Source: Aquimarina sp. MAR_2010_214 (GTDB taxonomy: Bacteria; Bacteroidota; Bacteroidia; Flavobacteriales; Flavobacteriaceae). Taken from it: a stretch of 64,000 nucleotides of DNA. A program made the translations under genes and the position numbers. The first letter of the stretch is position 1; each line of letters opens with the position of its first letter. The notes under the pieces were generated by a model. The model saw only the letters and a program-made list of their open reading frames with translations. It was not told where the DNA came from and did not search any database. Positions 2,721 to 10,747 of the stretch are shown here, in pieces. The stretch is from the NCBI RefSeq assembly GCF_002846555.1, contig NZ_PJMS01000001.1, forward strand, positions 1,302,001 to 1,366,000, written 5' to 3'.

Positions 2721-2790
2721 TAAAAAATCTCAAATGCATAACGAGTTATTCTAATTATACCTGTACAATGATTTTTTGAGGTGTGAATAT

Positions 2791-2831
2791 ATACATTAGG
2801 TCGAAAAATAGTTAATAATAAGATAGTTTTG
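2791..2831 (+). promoter_or_regulatory. Shared regulon operator plus -7 box, regulator 1
   Basis: The element ATACATTAGGTCGA (2791-2804) is followed after 19 bases by TAGTTTTG (2824-2831), a perfect Bacteroidota -7 box (TAnnTTTG). The element sits where the -33 box would be and no good -33 TTG is present, which suggests an activator site. The same arrangement occurs before four other genes (3994, 5101, 6300, 8508). The ATG follows the -7 box by 21 bases. Confidence 0.7.
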
Positions 2832-2852
2832 TATAAAAATTAATTACTTCTT

Positions 2853-3971
2853 ATGCAGTCTTTTGAATTAATTGACCTAATTGTATTTTTAGGTATTAGC
2901 CAAGGAATATTTTTAGCTATTGTAATTCAGGTGTTACAAAATAAGAATAGACTTGCTAATAGAACATTATCTCTGATTTTAACCATAGCTTCAATAATGT
3001 TAACAGGTCGATTTTTCTTTACTATAGAGACCGATAACAAAGTCTTCTTTAGGCTAGCACTTTTTGTAGATATACTAGTATTTGTATTTGGCCCCTTGTT
3101 ATATCTTTATTATAGAAGATTAATATTTAATGAAAAATCAAAATACAAATTACACTATACATGTTTTATTCCTGCAACAGGAATGTTAGCATATCATTTT
3201 TGGACGTATCAATTTTCTTATGATGAATTTGTTTTACTGGCTCAGAATGGCAATCTTACACTATCTTTTTTAATTATAGAAGCGGTTGGAATTCTCTTCA
3301 ACTTATATTTTGTATATCAGTGTTTTCAGTTATTAGGGATATACCAAAAAGAAGAAAAAAACAATTTATCATATTCTCAAAATCTGGTAAGATACCTTAA
3401 TGCAATTTTGATTATAGGGAGTTTGTTTTTATTGTTATGGATAATAAGTTTTGTGCTAGGATATGGTTTTAAGATATATTCCTCATTTTTAAGCTACAAT
3501 GCCATATGGATAGTGGTTTGTGTTTTTGTTTATATAATAGGTTTTTATAGTCTAAAACAACCTGATCTTTTTAGAATGCCTTTATATCTAAACACACACA
3601 TTAAAAAGAAAGAACGACTGGATAATGAAGTGGTTAAAAACTTAGAGGTTATGCTAGAAAAACTTATGATAAATGAGAAAATATATCTGAATCATAAACT
3701 TACCTTAGTGGATCTTGCAAAAAAATTGGATACATCAACAAACAATGTTTCCTGGTTACTCAATAATATTCATAAATGTACTTTTTATGATTATATCAAT
3801 ACATATAGAGTAAAAGCATTTATAGAAAAGATTCATAATGGAGAGCATCATCATCATACGCTCCTAGCATTATCAATGGATTCTGGATTTAATTCTAAGT
3901 CTACTTTCAATAAAGCATTTAAGGCAGTTATTAAAGATACGCCAAGCAACTATATAAAAAAAACTGCTTAA
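2853..3971 (+). CDS. Membrane-anchored AraC-type transcriptional regulator, copy 1
   Basis: 372 residues. The N-terminal two thirds (about 1-235) is an integral membrane domain with about seven hydrophobic helices, opening with SFELIDLIVFLGISQGIFLA. After a basic linker (HIKKKERL, about 250) comes a C-terminal AraC/XylS double helix-turn-helix (about 265-372). It includes a first HTH around LTLVDLAKKLDTSTNNVSWL and the family signature near GFNSKSTFNKAFK. The architecture predicts an inner-membrane receptor that senses a signal directly and binds DNA. It is a close paralogue of the regulator at 5166. A beta-propeller lipoprotein follows on the same strand with its own promoter. The ligand is unknown; the nearby secreted peptide at 8623 is my candidate. 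Confidence 0.88.
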   Translation: MQSFELIDLIVFLGISQGIFLAIVIQVLQNKNRLANRTLSLILTIASIMLTGRFFFTIETDNKVFFRLALFVDILVFVFGPLLYLYYRRLIFNEKSKYKLHYTCFIPATGMLAYHFWTYQFSYDEFVLLAQNGNLTLSFLIIEAVGILFNLYFVYQCFQLLGIYQKEEKNNLSYSQNLVRYLNAILIIGSLFLLLWIISFVLGYGFKIYSSFLSYNAIWIVVCVFVYIIGFYSLKQPDLFRMPLYLNTHIKKKERLDNEVVKNLEVMLEKLMINEKIYLNHKLTLVDLAKKLDTSTNNVSWLLNNIHKCTFYDYINTYRVKAFIEKIHNGEHHHHTLLALSMDSGFNSKSTFNKAFKAVIKDTPSNYIKKTA

Positions 3972-3993
3972 TTGTATAAAAATGTTTAAACGT

Positions 3994-4034
3994 ACCCAAA
4001 CGGTCGATTTCTTTGTTTCCTGAAGTTACTTTCA
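3994..4034 (+). promoter_or_regulatory. Shared regulon operator plus -7 box, lipoprotein 1
   Basis: ACCCAAACGGTCGA (3994-4007) precedes, by 19 bases, TACTTTCA (4027-4034), a degenerate TAnnTTTG. The expected transcription start (about 4041) lies past an upstream in-frame ATG at 4013 and about 17 bases before the ATG at 4058. That supports 4058 as the real start of the lipoprotein gene. Confidence 0.6.
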
Positions 4035-4057
4035 CAAAAACTTTAAAAATTAAAGAA

Positions 4058-4987
4058 ATGAAAACACTTTTTAAAAGAATTAAAATTATAACGACTTCAT
4101 TAGTTGCTTTATTGAGTATGTTCTTATTATTCCTGTCTTGTAGTGGTGATGGAATCGACCCTGATCCTGAAGTAAAAACCATACTTAACAATTTTGTAGG
4201 GAATGGTGCAGTATCTGTAGATAGAAACGGAAATGTTTATGTTTCAGAATACGGTAGATTTATTGATACAGGTGGTAGTGGAACTCGAATTTTTAAACTT
4301 TCTCCACAAGGAAAAATTTTAGATACAATACAAGGCCTTTCTGGACCTATGGGGACTGCGAAAGATTCTAAGGGAAACTTGTATGTTAATAATGCCAATA
4401 ATACTGTAAATGGCCAAGTGTTAAAAATAACACCTGAAGGAGATCGTATAGTTATTGCAACTATTAATGGTTGGCCTAGTAGCATGACCATAGATCACCA
4501 TGATAATTTATATATTTCTAATTATACTGCATCTACGGTACATAAAGTTTCTTCGAATGGAGAAGTTACAGAATATGCAAATGACCCTAGGTTATTAGGA
4601 GGTGTAGGAATTGATTTGGATAGTAAAGGGAATGTAATTGTTGCCAATTTTTACACAGCCGATATATATTCTATTGATAAGAATGGCCAAATCTCATTGA
4701 TTGCCAATATCCCCGATATTGTAATTCAAAATTTTGGGATTGGTTATATCACAATAATAAACGATACTATTTATGCTACAGGAATTGCTGTAAATTATAT
4801 TTATAAAGTTTCATTAGAAGGTGAAATAGAGATTCTAGCTGGTAATGGAGAAGTCAAACAAGTAGATGGGCCTTTATTAGAAGCTTCTTTTCAAAATCCA
4901 AATGGAATATCTTCTAATAAATATGCTAAGATTTTATATGTTTCTGAATATACAGGTAGTGGAGGTATTCGTAAAATAGAGCTTTAA
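4058..4987 (+). CDS. NHL/SMP-30-like beta-propeller lipoprotein, copy 1
   Basis: 309 residues from the ATG at 4058. I prefer it to the in-frame ATG at 4013 because it starts directly with a lipoprotein signal (K-rich n-region, hydrophobic core, lipobox LFLSC with C28) and fits the promoter. After the cysteine comes SGDGIDPDPE, an acidic stretch compatible with Bacteroidota surface-export signals. The rest is a propeller of about six blades with repeated G-N-x-Y-V/I-S/A strands (GNVYVSEYG, GNLYVNNAN, DNLYISNYT, GNVIVANFY), typical of SMP-30/gluconolactonase/NHL-type folds. No metal ligand set could be assigned with confidence. It pairs with the upstream regulator. The role is probably binding or processing of a ligand at the envelope. 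Confidence 0.82.
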   Translation: MKTLFKRIKIITTSLVALLSMFLLFLSCSGDGIDPDPEVKTILNNFVGNGAVSVDRNGNVYVSEYGRFIDTGGSGTRIFKLSPQGKILDTIQGLSGPMGTAKDSKGNLYVNNANNTVNGQVLKITPEGDRIVIATINGWPSSMTIDHHDNLYISNYTASTVHKVSSNGEVTEYANDPRLLGGVGIDLDSKGNVIVANFYTADIYSIDKNGQISLIANIPDIVIQNFGIGYITIINDTIYATGIAVNYIYKVSLEGEIEILAGNGEVKQVDGPLLEASFQNPNGISSNKYAKILYVSEYTGSGGIRKIEL

Positions 4988-5100
4988 TCAAATATATTGA
5001 TAGGAATTAATATTAGATGAAATTATTTCATTAGAATAGAAAACAGCTGCTAAAAAAGAGATGAGGTGATATGTAATTTCTTTTTTTAAAGTACGATATG

Positions 5101-5142
5101 ATCCATTCGGTCGAAAAAGTATAAGATAATATGATAGTTTTG
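5101..5142 (+). promoter_or_regulatory. Shared regulon operator plus -7 box, regulator 2
   Basis: ATCCATTCGGTCGA (5101-5114), a 20-base gap, then TAGTTTTG (5135-5142), a perfect TAnnTTTG -7 box identical to that of regulator 1. The ATG at 5166 follows the -7 box by 23 bases. Confidence 0.72.
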
Positions 5143-5165
5143 TAATAAACAGTAATTATTTGTTA

Positions 5166-6284
5166 ATGCAATCTTTCGAATTCATTGATCTTATACTTTT
5201 TTTTGGAATTAGCCAAGGTGTTTTTTTGGCGGTTACTCTTCAGATTATTAAGAATAAGAATAAAGCGGCAAACAGAATACTTTCTATAATGTTAATGCTT
5301 TCTGTTTTTATGCTTTTGGGCAGAATGATTTTTTTTAAATTCTTGACTATAAGATTGTTTCAATGGTCTATTCTTATTGATTCGGTAATTTTCTTATTTG
5401 GGCCGCTATGTTATATGTATAGTAGACGATTGATATTTTTTAAAAATGATACGTTTAGACTTTCTTGGTTTCACTATATACCTGTTGGTTTTCATCTTTT
5501 ATTTTCGTTTTACATTTTTTCTTTTCAAGTAGATGATTTTTCAGATAAGTTATCGTCAGGATTTTTTAGAATACCTTTTTTTATTATTGAAGGAGCAGGG
5601 ATTGTTTCTAATATATACTATTGGGTTCTTAATGTGAAAATTTTGAAAACATATATTCATAAAGAGAAAAATCATGTTTCTTATACTCAAAGTTTGGTGT
5701 CGTTTTTCAAATTTTTTCAAATCTCAATCTTTATTGTTATTACGGTATGGATGATCAGTTTTATCTCAATGAACTTTTTTAATTATTCTATAAAATTTAT
5801 TAATTATAATTCGGTTTGGAGTACAATTTCGGTATTCATATTTGTGATCGGATATTATAGTCTTAAAGAACCAGAATTGTTTAGAGTACCGTTTCAAAAA
5901 GAAAAAACAAAATCATCACAACGTTTACCACAAGATCAGATTATTTCTATAGGAAAAGAACTAAACAGGCTGATCGAAAAAGAAAAGATTTTTCTAAAAC
6001 CTGATTTAACGCTTCGTGATCTTTCTGTACATTTAGATACTTCTACTCATAATATTTCATGGTATCTCAATCATATATCAAAAAGTAATTTTTATGATTA
6101 TATCAATCATTTTAGGATAAAGGAATTTTTATCGAAGATAGATAATAATGAACATCTTCATCATACCATACTCGCCATTGCTATGGAAGTAGGTTTTAAT
6201 TCGAAATCAACTTTTAATAAGGCCTTTAAATTCGAAATTAAGGATACACCAAGAAATTATATTAAGGGATTAAAGGCGGCTTAA
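5166..6284 (+). CDS. Membrane-anchored AraC-type transcriptional regulator, copy 2
   Basis: 372 residues from the ATG at 5166. A TTG two codons upstream is possible, but MQSFEFIDL matches the start of copy 1. The layout is the same: about seven hydrophobic helices in the first 235 residues and a C-terminal AraC double HTH, with LTLRDLSVHLDTSTHNISWY and GFNSKSTFNKAFK. Near-identical stretches with copy 1 (GPLCYMYSRRLIF versus GPLLYLYYRRLIF, FYDYINHFRIKEF versus FYDYINTYRVKAF) show a recent duplication. Divergence is greatest in the membrane half, so the two may read different signals or variants of one signal. It is followed by its own lipoprotein partner. Confidence 0.88.
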   Translation: MQSFEFIDLILFFGISQGVFLAVTLQIIKNKNKAANRILSIMLMLSVFMLLGRMIFFKFLTIRLFQWSILIDSVIFLFGPLCYMYSRRLIFFKNDTFRLSWFHYIPVGFHLLFSFYIFSFQVDDFSDKLSSGFFRIPFFIIEGAGIVSNIYYWVLNVKILKTYIHKEKNHVSYTQSLVSFFKFFQISIFIVITVWMISFISMNFFNYSIKFINYNSVWSTISVFIFVIGYYSLKEPELFRVPFQKEKTKSSQRLPQDQIISIGKELNRLIEKEKIFLKPDLTLRDLSVHLDTSTHNISWYLNHISKSNFYDYINHFRIKEFLSKIDNNEHLHHTILAIAMEVGFNSKSTFNKAFKFEIKDTPRNYIKGLKAA

Positions 6285-6299
6285 AATAAGTGCGAATAG

Positions 6300-6340
6300 A
6301 TCCAAACCGTCGATTTTTATGAAGTGCTTGCATATTTTAG
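6300..6340 (+). promoter_or_regulatory. Shared regulon operator plus -7 box, lipoprotein 2
   Basis: ATCCAAACCGTCGA (6300-6313), a 19-base gap, then TATTTTAG (6333-6340), one mismatch from TAnnTTTG. The predicted start lies about 17 bases before the ATG at 6364, the same leader length as for lipoprotein 1. Confidence 0.65.
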
Positions 6341-6363
6341 GGCAAACTTAAAAATCATTCAAT

Positions 6364-7299
6364 ATGAAAACATGTATTCAACACATTAGTATAAAAGCAT
6401 TGATGCTTTTTGTTTTATCTTCAATGGCAATCACACTAATTTCTTGTTATGGAGATGGAATTGATCCAGACCTCGAAGTAGAAACTGTAGTTTCACCTTT
6501 TTTTGGTAATGATGCCGTTAGTGTAGATAAATTTGGCAATATTTATGTCTCAGAATTTGGCCAGTTTGCAGGAGCAAATGGTAATGGAACCAGGGTTTTT
6601 AAAATATCCAAAAATGGTGATGTTACAGAATTTGCGTCGAATTTAACAGGTCCATTAGGGAATGCAATTGATCAACAAGGTAATTTGTTTGTTGTTAACA
6701 GTAGTGGTGGTGGATCAGGAGAGATTCTTAAAATTACACCAGACGGCACACAAACTGTAGTAGCGACCATTAGTGGTTTTCCATCGGGACTAACTTTGGA
6801 CCATGATAATAATCTATATGTGTCAAATTTTGGAACCCCGACGGTTCATAAAGTTACGACTGAAGGAGAAGTAACCGTATATGCATCTGATCCAAAATTA
6901 GCAGGAGGAGTAGGGATTGATTTTGACCGTAAAGGAAATCTAATTGTTGGTAATTTTGCTACGGCAGATATATTATCTATAGATCCAAAAGGGAATGTTT
7001 CTCTTATCACTACTATTACTGATGCTGTGGTTAATGGTTTCGGAATTGGGTATATAACTGTTGTTAGAAATACGATATTTGCTACAGGTATTGGGGTAAA
7101 TAAGATATTTAAAATTTCTATGGATGGTACAACAGAAGAGTTTGCAGGTACAGGAGATGCAGCTCAAACCGATGGATTACTTAAAGAAGCATCATTTAAT
7201 GGCCCTAACGGAATTACTTCTGATCCATACCATACAGCGATGTATATCTCAGAATTTGGAGGAACCGGAGGGGTGAGAAAAATTAAATTTTATGGCTAA
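6364..7299 (+). CDS. NHL/SMP-30-like beta-propeller lipoprotein, copy 2
   Basis: 311 residues. Lipoprotein signal with lipobox LISC (C28) followed by YGDGIDPDLE, almost the same as copy 1 (SGDGIDPDPE). Propeller strands repeat GNIYVSEFG, GNLFVVNSS, NNLYVSNFG and GNLIVGNFA, and the protein ends with a GGVRKIKF strand. The last codon (glycine) and the stop TAA come from the left end of the IS element inserted at 7294. Without the insertion the frame would read ...KFY and stop at a TAA, so function is probably intact. The original transcription terminator now lies beyond the IS (8421-8447). Confidence 0.83.
   Translation: MKTCIQHISIKALMLFVLSSMAITLISCYGDGIDPDLEVETVVSPFFGNDAVSVDKFGNIYVSEFGQFAGANGNGTRVFKISKNGDVTEFASNLTGPLGNAIDQQGNLFVVNSSGGGSGEILKITPDGTQTVVATISGFPSGLTLDHDNNLYVSNFGTPTVHKVTTEGEVTVYASDPKLAGGVGIDFDRKGNLIVGNFATADILSIDPKGNVSLITTITDAVVNGFGIGYITVVRNTIFATGIGVNKIFKISMDGTTEEFAGTGDAAQTDGLLKEASFNGPNGITSDPYHTAMYISEFGGTGGVRKIKFYG
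7286..7293. repeat. Left target-site duplication of the IS
   Basis: AATTTTAT directly precedes the left terminal inverted repeat, and the identical 8-mer follows the right one at 8347-8354. Eight-base duplications are usual for the IS1595 family. Confidence 0.88.
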
Positions 7300-8346
7300 G
7301 TTCTAATTAGAATATGTTTTATCTTTACTTTATAAAAACGGAGAAATGATACCAGAAGATTTTAGAGATTTTTTCATTAGTTCATCGGCTTTGGTTCAAT
7401 CAGAAATTGTTTCCACATTATTGGAGATCTCTACTGAGGGTTCAGCCCTGATTGATAGCAATCAGAGTAAAGCCATAAGCTGTCCTCATTGTAAGTGCAA
7501 TAAAATTAAGGCTAATGGTAAGCTCAAAGGAGTACAGCGCTATGTTTGTAATACTTGTCATAAAAACTTTAGTGAAACTACCGGTAAGTTCTGGTACAAC
7601 CTCAAGAAGAAAGACAAAGTTAATCGTTATTTATTCTGTTTACTCTCTGGATATAGTATTCGCAAGAGTGCCAAAGAAACAGGGATTTCTATTCAGACTT
7701 CTTTTGATTGGAGGCACAAATTACTTGTCTCCTTTGGGAGCGTAAGTGTGGATGAATTCCAAGGAATCCTAGAGAGTGATGATCTTTTCTTTGCTTACTC
7801 TGAAAAAGGGAATCGAAATTTGGATCGTCCTGCTAGAAAACGTGGCGCAAAGGCAAGTAAAGCTGGTCTCAGTAATGAAAAAGTAGCTGTGATAGCCAGT
7901 TGTGACCGATCAGGGAACAAAGATTTCAAAGTAGCTACCAGAGGTCGCATTAGTAAAAGTGACTTGGAGACTATATTACAAGGGAAGTTGGCTAAAGTAG
8001 AAACCCTTTGTAGCGACAGTCACAGAAGCTATACTGCATTTGCAAAAGACAAGAAGGTAGCACACAAAAAATTTAATGCTTCGAAGGGTCAAAGAGCTGT
8101 TGACAAAATATATCACGTACAAAATGTGAATAATATGGATATGCGTCTAAGGAAATTTATGGAGCCCTTCAATGGAGTGGCAACAAAATACCTTCAGAAT
8201 TATCTGAATTGGTTTTTAGTCTTAGAAAAAATAAAAAATTCAACCAGTAAAATGGCAACCGTAGCAGCTATAGCCTTTGCTTCCAATACTGCCTGGATGG
8301 AATTTAAAAACATAGTAGTAAATAATATGCTTTTTAGAACTTAGCC
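7294..8346 (+). mobile_element. IS1595-family insertion sequence, complete, 1053 bp
   Basis: Terminal inverted repeats GGCTAAGTTCTAA (7294-7306) and its exact complement (8334-8346), with imperfect pairing further inward, bracket a single transposase gene. An 8-bp direct repeat AATTTTAT flanks the element. Both ends overlap coding sequence: the left end supplies the stop of the lipoprotein gene, and the right repeat includes the transposase stop codon. Intact ends, perfect target duplication and an uninterrupted transposase indicate a recent, potentially active insertion. Confidence 0.9.
7346..8344 (+). CDS. IS1595-family (ISXO2-like) transposase
   Basis: 332 residues. An N-terminal zinc ribbon (C46-x2-C49 and C68-x2-C71) is followed by a small HTH-like region (GYSIRKSAKETGIS, about 102-115). 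The ISXO2-like DDE catalytic domain (about 138-310) contains ESDD near 143-146, SDSHRSY near 223-229 and the late segment FNGVATKYLQNYLNWF. That last segment is characteristic of the family. The enzyme cuts and pastes the surrounding 1.05-kb element. The frame is intact. An overlapping plus-strand ORF at 7515-7745 is a shadow. Confidence 0.92.
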   Translation: MIPEDFRDFFISSSALVQSEIVSTLLEISTEGSALIDSNQSKAISCPHCKCNKIKANGKLKGVQRYVCNTCHKNFSETTGKFWYNLKKKDKVNRYLFCLLSGYSIRKSAKETGISIQTSFDWRHKLLVSFGSVSVDEFQGILESDDLFFAYSEKGNRNLDRPARKRGAKASKAGLSNEKVAVIASCDRSGNKDFKVATRGRISKSDLETILQGKLAKVETLCSDSHRSYTAFAKDKKVAHKKFNASKGQRAVDKIYHVQNVNNMDMRLRKFMEPFNGVATKYLQNYLNWFLVLEKIKNSTSKMATVAAIAFASNTAWMEFKNIVVNNMLFRT

Positions 8347-8354
8347 AATTTTAT
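8347..8354. repeat. Right target-site duplication of the IS
   Basis: AATTTTAT, identical to 7286-7293, directly after the right terminal inverted repeat. Confidence 0.88.
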
Positions 8355-8420
8355 TAAAACATTAAAGATGTTAGAGTTAGACTAATTTACACTTCTATTT
8401 TGAAAGAAATATTATAAAAC

Positions 8421-8447
8421 AAGCCCGTACAAATGATGTATGGGCTT
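8421..8447 (+). terminator. Hairpin terminator, displaced end of the lipoprotein 2 transcript
   Basis: AAGCCCGTAC (8421-8430) pairs with GTATGGGCTT (8438-8447) with one G-T wobble and a 7-base loop. TTTCAAATTTCTT follows. It lies 75 bases right of the IS and was probably the terminator of the lipoprotein gene before the insertion. Confidence 0.6.
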
Positions 8448-8507
8448 TCAAATTTCTTAATAATTCTATTAAGATTATTTAAAATAGATACTAAGAGGTT
8501 CGTTTGT

Positions 8508-8548
8508 ATACATTCGGTCGACTCAATGAGCAATACAATTTAGATTTG
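8508..8548 (+). promoter_or_regulatory. Shared regulon operator plus -7 box, peptide precursor
   Basis: ATACATTCGGTCGA (8508-8521), a 19-base gap, then TAGATTTG (8541-8548), a perfect TAnnTTTG. This is the clearest of the five copies. It predicts a start near 8555 and a leader of about 68 bases before the peptide ATG. Confidence 0.75.
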
Positions 8549-8622: not shown

Positions 8623-8829
8623 ATGTTACAGTCAATTTTAAAATTAAAACAAGTTAAACTACTAGACAGAAAAGCTAAAGTAAATATTAATGGAGGAGGT
8701 ATTAATAATACAGTTTGTCCTAAAGAGGGAGATATTTGTTCTTCAAGTTTTTTGTTAATACCTTGTATGGGGCCTGCAGATGATATTTCATGTGTCAATG
8801 GAGTTTGGACTTCTTGCAGCTACTGTTGA
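8623..8829 (+). CDS. Double-glycine-leader, cysteine-rich secreted peptide precursor
   Basis: 68 residues. The first 25 (MLQSILKLKQVKLLDRK...INGG) match the Bacteroidota double-glycine leader type, with an LKL.-V-K-L motif, a basic middle and an N-x-GG cleavage point at G24-G25. C39-peptidase ABC transporters remove such leaders during export. The predicted mature peptide of about 43 residues has six cysteines (32, 39, 48, 57, 65, 68), enough for three disulfides, and ends in CSYC. It could be a bacteriocin or a signalling peptide; the shared operator with two membrane regulators favours signalling or self-regulated production. No exporter or modifying enzyme is in the window. ATG start, own promoter at 8541. 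Confidence 0.72.
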   Translation: MLQSILKLKQVKLLDRKAKVNINGGGINNTVCPKEGDICSSSFLLIPCMGPADDISCVNGVWTSCSYC

Positions 8830-8866: not shown

Positions 8867-8905
8867 CCTTAAAACCATATCATTATGTTACAATCAATTT
8901 TGTGA
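8867..8905 (+). pseudogene. Remnant of a second peptide precursor (start region only)
   Basis: Positions 8867-8902 match 8605-8640, the upstream region and first codons of the precursor gene, at 31 of 36 bases. The copied reading frame starts at ATG 8885 and reads MLQSIL before a TGA at 8903-8905. Homology ends there. It is the 5' stub of a tandem duplicate lost by deletion or recombination. Confidence 0.7.
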
Positions 8906-9781: not shown

Positions 9782-10747
9782 ATGAACTACAAATCAAAAA
9801 CCTTAATTATTGTCATAATTCTTTTTACCTCAGCACTTGGGGTTTCTCAGGTAAGAGTTGGGAATTTTTCACATATTAAAAATAAATTTAAGAAATTAAA
9901 TAATAAAGATTTAAAAAGGTTTACGAATACCCAAACAACATTTGTTTTTCCTAATGTTTTTCCTAAATCATCTTATGAAAATATCCTTAATCAGGTTTGG
10001 GATATAACCCCTTATAAAGTAGTTTATGAAGATGATTTTACAGGGGATGACTTAGAAATTGACAATGCTTTGGCTAGATTTGAAATTATGGAGCTTGAAG
10101 TAACTACACAATCAGGGATGATGAAATCATATAGTTTTACCTGTATAGATTTTGGTGTTATTGACAAAATTAAAAAGAAAAAGAAAAACAATGTTTGGAG
10201 CATATCAAGAGTAGGTGCAATTTATTTTACACCAGATATCAAAATAAGGCAGCAAATAGCAGCACCATTTAACGCAGGAGAAGTTGTTGGTGATTTTATC
10301 AATTTTAGATTAGGATATTTAAAAAATTATCTACAATTAGTAAATAAAAATTTAAAAAATGAAAGGCCTGTTGATATTTATGATGATTATGTCCTCCCTG
10401 AGTTAAAAGATCTTAAAAATCATACTTTGTATATAGATTCTAATCTATTATACGGGTATGATGGCTTTTTTGGATTAGAAAAAAAGAGCCCAGAAATAGA
10501 AAAGTTAATGCAAGATTATCCTTTTAAATATGAAGTAGTTAAATACGGCACACTAGAAGAAAAAATCTTTAACGAAAAGAAAGATTTCTATTACTTAATG
10601 TATAATCAGATAAATTATAATAAAATAATAAACATTGTAAATGGAAAAACCGGAAATGCAATTTATCAAGAACACACTAAAATGTCCTTTAATATAAAAC
10701 CTAAAGATTTTAAAAAAATTAGTTCTAAAATAAGTAAACTGAACTAA
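9782..10747 (+). CDS. Secreted protein of unknown function
   Basis: 321 residues with a signal peptide (about 1-22, ending GVSQ). The remainder is lysine- and aromatic-rich, with a lysine cluster (KIKKKKKNN, about 130) and no transmembrane helix, lipobox or sorting tail. I do not recognise a domain. It probably acts in the periplasm or is released. It stands alone: pseudogene and repeat sequence upstream, mfd convergent downstream. The shared operator of the upstream regulon is not found in front of it. Confidence 0.7.
   Translation: MNYKSKTLIIVIILFTSALGVSQVRVGNFSHIKNKFKKLNNKDLKRFTNTQTTFVFPNVFPKSSYENILNQVWDITPYKVVYEDDFTGDDLEIDNALARFEIMELEVTTQSGMMKSYSFTCIDFGVIDKIKKKKKNNVWSISRVGAIYFTPDIKIRQQIAAPFNAGEVVGDFINFRLGYLKNYLQLVNKNLKNERPVDIYDDYVLPELKDLKNHTLYIDSNLLYGYDGFFGLEKKSPEIEKLMQDYPFKYEVVKYGTLEEKIFNEKKDFYYLMYNQINYNKIINIVNGKTGNAIYQEHTKMSFNIKPKDFKKISSKISKLN

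Follow-up and report, generated by a model that had tools for sequence, protein, structure and literature searches.

The window analysed here, 64,000 nucleotides of the single-contig 5.98-Mb genome of Aquimarina sp. MAR_2010_214, carries a cluster of five genes with a common operator and promoter architecture. The cluster encodes two membrane proteins with an AraC-type helix-turn-helix (HTH) domain (R1 and R2), two beta-propeller proteins (LP1 and LP2) and a Cys-rich peptide with a double-glycine leader (PEP). We consider it fairly probable that R1 and R2 are one-component membrane activators acting on an operator of about 26 bp, that regulator and propeller form the older core of the system and that the peptide is a later output. 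Co-regulation of the five genes through R1/R2 is likely. At the level of sequence, the conserved operator, its spacing, the gene order, the co-occurrence and the exchange of the peptide are established.

Operator and promoter architecture of the cluster

A first-pass annotation, made from the letters of the window, had described a 14-bp element in front of the five genes, followed 19 or 20 bp downstream by a -7 box that is perfect (TAnnTTTG) for the regulators and the peptide and degenerate for the lipoproteins. Both observations were confirmed, the 14-mers starting at positions 2791, 3994, 5101, 6300 and 8508. All features of the cluster lie on the forward strand (+). The gene of R1 (2853–3971) is preceded by its operator (2781–2806, with the 14-mer at 2791–2804 and GT at -10) and, 19 bp past the 14-mer, by the -7 box TAGTTTTG (2824–2831). 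The operator of LP1 (3984–4009, 14-mer 3994–4007) and the degenerate box TACTTTCA (4027–4034) are likewise spaced by 19 bp and precede the gene at 4058–4987. For R2 (5166–6284), a paralogue of R1 with 46% identity, the operator is found at 5091–5116 (14-mer 5101–5114) and the box TAGTTTTG at 5135–5142, here at a spacing of 20 bp. LP2 (6364–7299; 54% identity to its paralogue LP1) follows an operator at 6290–6315 (14-mer 6300–6313) and, after 19 bp, the degenerate box TATTTTAG (6333–6340). The PEP gene (8623–8829) has its operator at 8498–8523 (14-mer 8508–8521) and the box TAGATTTG at 8541–8548, again at 19 bp.

While the positions of the 14-mers stood, the length given for the element did not. 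It reaches about 10 bp further upstream, with GT at -10/-9 in five of five sites of the window, so that the full operator measures approximately 26 bp (GTnnnAnTGTATnCAAACGGTCGATT). Based on the conserved upstream GT and the fixed spacing, the 14-mer is, as judged from the alignments, only the promoter-proximal part of a longer asymmetric site.

When up to one mismatch was allowed, AYMCAWWMSGTCGA matched the window at exactly the five sites, compared to 0.37 matches expected from 100 shuffles. The exact 14-mer pattern has five matches in the whole genome, all in the cluster, a count that is partly self-referential because the pattern was derived from the same five sites. With one mismatch, 47 matches were obtained genome-wide compared to 112 in the reversed control. 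The first-pass annotation had named a random frequency of the motif as evidence against its proposal; the exact form occurs at the five sites only, and the one-mismatch form stays below its control. Only the exact form is thus specific, and the one-mismatch 14-mer was rejected as a genome-wide predictor.

For a first matrix, 82 sites found in other Aquimarina genomes were used, with the window excluded; it is partly circular, as these sites had been picked at up to two mismatches to the 14-mer pattern. With this matrix the five sites score 26–36 bits, the rest of the 64 kb remains below 8 bits throughout and five shuffles reached a maximum of 11.7. Since pattern and matrix both rest on the sites of the first-pass annotation, the test was repeated without any pattern by Gibbs sampling of 130 bp upstream of 34 propeller genes (18 from Aquimarina and 16 from outside the genus). 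The input regions had been fetched for the regulator, and the outside set comprised 16 of 17 genes after exclusion of G155, a near copy of G357. The motif obtained, GT.t.A.TGTAt.CAaAcGGTCGATT, corresponds to the 14-bp element with 10 bp added and mostly ends 47–50 bp before the ATG. Scanned on the window, its only matches of at least 9 bits are the five sites (maximum of five shuffles 10.6), with scores of 31.1 (LP1), 28.3 (LP2), 26.3 (PEP), 14.4 (R2) and 13.4 (R1). The sites of R1 and R2 score lower because the regulator promoters end in GTCGAAA and not in GTCGATT.

A relaxed 50-bp pattern yielded 12 matches in the own genome compared to 15 in the control, and no further target emerged; beyond the five known sites, one match has two mismatches and six have three. 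The sequence ACACAAACCGTCAA occurs twice, with a distance of 21 bp, upstream of a 624-aa open reading frame (ORF) at G000:C1:5267286-5267320. The 82-site matrix did not pick this pair, which was rejected as an operator of this regulon; it may serve another regulator as a direct-repeat operator.

Recurrence within the genus Aquimarina

The unit of membrane AraC-type regulator, operator and NHL-propeller gene recurs across Aquimarina, of which 66 genomes were covered by the motif search. In 48 regions from 42 genomes (47 fetched regions and the window), 54 of the 58 propeller genes have the motif with up to two mismatches upstream, as do 47 of the 62 regulator genes. The background in the same regions is 7 of 307 other ORFs of at least 200 aa. 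Eight of 40 motif-chosen regions had been excluded for want of a clear regulator cluster (L089, L108, L110, L113, L114, L115, L119 and L120), and five out-of-clade relatives (L167–L171) among 20 regions from the regulator list served as controls. Eleven named loci (L041–L051), most or all of them the same genomes under other names, were kept out of the counts. In the regions taken later from the regulator list (L152–L164 and L166), the motif precedes 15 of the 18 propeller genes and 10 of the 18 regulator genes. Ten of the 11 named relatives of R2 belong to Aquimarina, and one to a metagenome-assembled genome titled Bacteroidia bacterium.

The search proposed in the first-pass annotation, combining the motif with TAnnTTTG, gave 23 matches in 13 of 57 Aquimarina genomes and none in the reversed control. 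All but one of these (G052:C13) are located at genes for a regulator, a propeller or a peptide. The proposal of a single regulon is supported. With the GT at -10 added and the -7 box dropped, 60 matches in 30 of the 57 genomes were obtained (control 15). In 57 cases the neighbouring gene encodes a regulator (in G060 a distant one) or a propeller; the exceptions are G008:C48, G027:C22 and G050:C65. Of the 35 genomes that have the regulator (at least 40% identity), 28 contain the GT-extended operator, compared to 2 of the 22 that lack it.

TAnnTT occurs 18–20 bp behind the motif in 47 of 47 regulator promoters and 19–20 bp behind it in 41 of 54 propeller promoters; the distance is exactly 19 bp in 42 and 36 of them, respectively. 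The distance between the end of the motif and the ATG is 49–52 bp for 36 of the 47 regulator promoters and for 43 of the 54 propeller promoters. In the alignment of the Aquimarina promoters the GT at -10/-9 is conserved, followed by ATCCAAACGGTCGATT. The orientation and spacing of the operator are thus fixed and it adjoins the -35/-33 region, as is typical of class II promoters and in line with the -33 position originally assigned to it. In L093, around 7539 (-), a regulator-type operator and promoter lie directly before the R2 promoter and no R1 gene was found; this promoter is an orphan.

Distribution outside the genus

The unit recurs in 14 other genomes of Flavobacteriaceae. In a survey of 397 genomes of the family, including the own genome and two further Aquimarina, the regulator was found at E 1e-52 or better in 21. 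Eighteen of these, the own genome among them, belong to the regulator clade, and G124, G142 and G167 were treated as out-of-clade. Seventeen propeller genes lie beside the regulator in 15 outside genomes, and 14 of the 17 have an operator; in G422 (L204) another propeller follows immediately on the first and was not counted. The consensus of 11 promoters hand-picked out of the 17 is GT.cga.tGTAT.CAaACGGTCGATt followed by TAggTTTG. Across the order, the regulator was found at E 1e-60 in 2 of 296 genomes, including the own genome.

The operator combined with TAnnTTTG is present in 8 of 18 regulator-clade genomes compared to 1 of 379 others (Fisher 2.7e-11, a value which overstates independence because the species are related). 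A stricter propeller-type pattern was detected in 9 of 397 genomes, of which 8 are in the regulator clade (reversed control: 2 matches). Seven of its 10 matches are at the regulator cluster, one is at an unlinked propeller in G221, one is unlinked in G151 and one is in G454, a genome without the regulator. The own genome is missed by this pattern because the -7 boxes of its propellers are degenerate. The link between operator and AraC-type regulator is drawn from this co-occurrence and from the adjacency across genomes. No propeller was found beside the regulator in G243 and G371; in G371, operators of 20.1 and 21.5 bits precede the regulator and the next gene, which encodes a predicted 462-aa peptidase-like protein. 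Nine regions of out-of-clade or outlying relatives (L167–L171, L192–L194 and L198) contain no site of at least 12 bits.

Membrane regulators and propellers

Pfam matches agree with the first-pass assignment of both protein types. R1 matches HTH_18 with 42.8 bits, above the curated cut-off of 33.6, and R2, with 32.5 bits, is just below it; its 46% identity to R1 places R2 in the AraC-type family as well. For the membrane part no Pfam match was obtained. The first predicted helix starts at residue 6, leaving no large extracytoplasmic N-terminal domain, and the charges of the loops fit an N-out/C-in topology. By these predictions the membrane domain appears to consist of seven helices with the N-terminus outside. 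7TMR-DISM and other bacterial seven-helix receptors also join a seven-helix sensor to a cytoplasmic output domain, as predicted for R1 and R2. The 7TMR-DISM proteins have an N-terminal extracytoplasmic DISM domain, which R1 and R2 lack, and the output domain here is an AraC-type HTH.

Among solved structures, the best sequence match of the regulator profile was SoxS (1.8e-06). MarA, SoxS and Rob are activators at class II promoters; with these proteins R1 and R2 have in common the AraC-type HTH and an asymmetric site of about 20–26 bp next to the -35/-33 region. They differ in that the HTH follows a seven-helix membrane domain and that the promoter has a Bacteroidota -7 box. The predicted helix arrangement and topology of the membrane domain may resemble those of G protein-coupled receptors (GPCRs), although identities in the matches listed are 4–14%, Foldseek scores are weak (Foldseek alone gave no match under E 0.001) and the predicted output is DNA binding. 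It is conceivable, and we put it forward tentatively, that the proteins are GPCR-like seven-helix one-component receptors fused to an AraC HTH, with the NHL propeller as dedicated partner or target and Cys-rich peptide cassettes recruited in Aquimarina. If the GPCR arrangement is true, such a receptor would here, in a compact form, control DNA directly.

LP1 and LP2 are placed by Pfam among NHL/SGL/Vgb-lyase-like propellers; for Vgb_lyase, LP2 scores 53.0 and LP1 36.2 bits, with a curated cut-off of 50. They belong to the same family as the NHL/SMP-30/virginiamycin-B-lyase-like propellers and the sensor propeller of PknD (1rwi). The propellers described here are distinguished by being lipoprotein-like in the window (for LP1, the signal was judged by eye) or by carrying a type IX secretion tail (6 of 9 relatives' propellers scanned), and export is therefore their common theme. 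The unlinked propeller gene of G221 (L224 1498, +) has its operator 53 bp before the start. Operators were also observed before non-propeller genes next to the regulator in L097 (15198, +), L096 (3871, -) and L214 (5918, +), which encode 346, 414 and 462 aa; in L096 and L097, operators past a regulator precede other exported-looking proteins.

The peptide

PEP is a type B peptide of 68 aa with a leader of about 25 aa before the GG. It was assigned to no protein family and matches no double-glycine precursor family of NCBIfam, and none of four other peptides of the family exceeded an NCBIfam cut-off (best leader_Chryseo, 12.5 compared to 23.5). A search of 5.8 billion proteins, which reaches only relatives sharing short words, gave 30 matches at E 0.01, most of them without organism name; the named organisms are all Aquimarina and all matches are named hypothetical protein. 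A profile built from 20 peptides detected 36 genes. Type A peptides have about 56 aa and five conserved Cys, type B peptides 65–75 aa, and a few fit neither type. An own operator with up to two mismatches precedes 8 of the 36 genes. Among the 28 others, 15 of 16 measured start 17–98 bp after the propeller stop on the same strand, and one starts at 290 bp.

The first-pass annotation had proposed a pheromone circuit, in which the mature peptide, once exported, is recognised by R1/R2, possibly together with the propellers as co-receptors, and the five promoters are then activated. In favour of such a circuit, peptide and regulators in the window have one operator in common, 26 of 42 Aquimarina genomes were found to have peptide genes in their cluster regions, and peptides can be ligands of seven-helix receptors. 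However, the PEP family was found in none of 16 fetched regions (11–13 kb) outside Aquimarina and not near the cluster in 16 of the 42 Aquimarina genomes, one of which, G060, has a distant regulator only. Types A and B moreover stand under the same operator: in G063 (type B) and G064 (type A), near-identity extends over the operator, the 5' untranslated region and six codons before the sequences diverge, and the R2 proteins of G018 (type A) and G063 are 98% identical. Mean identities for genomes of the same and of different peptide type are 89.8 and 91.2% for R2, 77.9 and 78.1% for R1 and 91.4 and 92.0% for LP2, so that similarity of regulator and propeller is unrelated to peptide type in this small sample (21 pairs, 7 genomes). 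The change of type under an unchanged operator and the lack of tracking are evidence against R1/R2 or the propellers as specific receptors of the mature peptide, and we regard the pheromone circuit, including the co-receptor role, as unlikely. R1/R2 may nevertheless sense a feature common to different peptides. It also speaks against the output reading that G243, a genome outside the genus, has two leader-type ORFs of 67 and 65 aa beside its regulator (L190 2654-3316, +), on the opposite strand, which look like precursors of another kind of peptide. The pattern of exchange suggests that the peptide is a cassette-exchanged output of the switch rather than its signal.

Bacteroidetocins (PMC6671954) are likewise Cys-rich peptides of Bacteroidota with a double-glycine leader, but the leader has 15–16 aa before the GG and the four-gene cluster comprises a C39 ABC transporter and a thiol oxidoreductase. 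PEP has a membrane regulator and propellers as neighbours instead. The two C39-peptidase matches of its genome (C1:4151208 and C1:4720704) are both far from the cluster, and no operator match of at least 6 bits was found near either C39 domain (L172 and L173).

A remnant start of a second peptide gene was observed at 8885–8905 (+). It has an ATG and five codons as in other peptide genes, followed by a stop after six codons, and its 5' untranslated stretch is similar as well.

Proposed mechanism and further alternatives

R1 and R2 would each join a seven-helix N-out domain to a cytoplasmic AraC-type HTH, making them one-component membrane regulators. Each probably binds the asymmetric operator of about 26 bp, whose 3' end would take the -33 position 19–20 bp before the -7 box, and would then recruit RNA polymerase as a class II activator. 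This would switch on the regulator's own gene and the adjacent exported NHL propeller. In part of Aquimarina the double-glycine peptide would also be switched on, via its own operator as in the window or as the next gene after the propeller, and be exported, presumably, by an unlinked C39 transporter. The regulator-operator-propeller unit is proposed to be the older core; the peptide would be a later, exchangeable addition and not the signal that the receptor evolved to sense.

We infer activation rather than repression from the position of the site. Its overlap with the polymerase contact region would also suit a repressor, with R1/R2 or another factor covering the -33 region and blocking the promoters until a signal releases them. 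However, no separate -33 element was seen beneath the operator (by eye, without a scan), AraC-type proteins are usually activators when their site adjoins -35, and the co-occurrence points to an R1/R2-type regulator instead of another factor. Repression is therefore rather improbable.

The Cys-rich double-glycine peptide, the exchange of cassettes and the frequent position of the peptide gene directly behind the propeller would fit a bacteriocin that is toxic to relatives, with the propeller lipoprotein protecting the producer. Propellers are, however, present without the peptide inside and outside Aquimarina and do not follow peptide type, the C39 exporters are unlinked and no thiol oxidoreductase was found among nine ORFs of the window scanned. 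We thus judge this explanation quite improbable. That the similar promoters are mere left-overs of a tandem duplication of one regulator-propeller pair is hardly credible: R1/R2 and LP1/LP2 are paralogous (46% and 54%), but the blocks conserved between genera are operator and -7 box, the peptide is unrelated to the regulator and propeller genes, and the operator also occurs at the unlinked propeller of G221.

Several observations weigh against the proposed mechanism. A motif match had been the criterion for fetching 40 of the Aquimarina regions (in one case a one-mismatch repeat), and 13 of 54 propeller promoters have no TAnnTT at 18–21 bp. Outside Aquimarina most regulator promoters show a degenerate form of the operator only, so that autoregulation may be weak there. 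The operator match of G151 is not at its regulator. G243, a member of the regulator clade, yielded no operator with the matrix. The recognition helix GFNSKSTF is also present in out-of-clade paralogues without the operator; the HTH sequence alone does not explain specificity, and an argument for operator specificity from this helix was dropped.

No described system with this gene set was found in the literature searched, in agreement with the first-pass annotation. Through this cluster, membrane AraC regulators of an uncharacterised class are linked to a defined operator and to a defined group of targets, which makes regulator function testable at once. At the peptide locus, operator, 5' untranslated region and the first six codons stay constant while almost all of the coding sequence is exchanged, and the locus represents a natural system for peptide diversification in marine Bacteroidota.

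Neighbouring features

A search of plasmids with positions 2740–7299 of the window gave no match. The regulator-propeller unit adjoins yraN in many regions and sits between yraN and mfd in several. In the window, a gene for a secreted DUF3472 protein with a ricin-type lectin domain and a type IX secretion tail (581–2293) lies between yraN and R1; it is also present in L041 and L042. An IS1595-type element (7293–8347) with 29-nt inverted ends and an 8-bp target duplication (AATTTTAT) has inserted right at the end of LP2, which it separates from the peptide promoter. On the 3' side of the peptide, an ORF of 321 aa without Pfam match (9782–10747) is 98% identical in L042.

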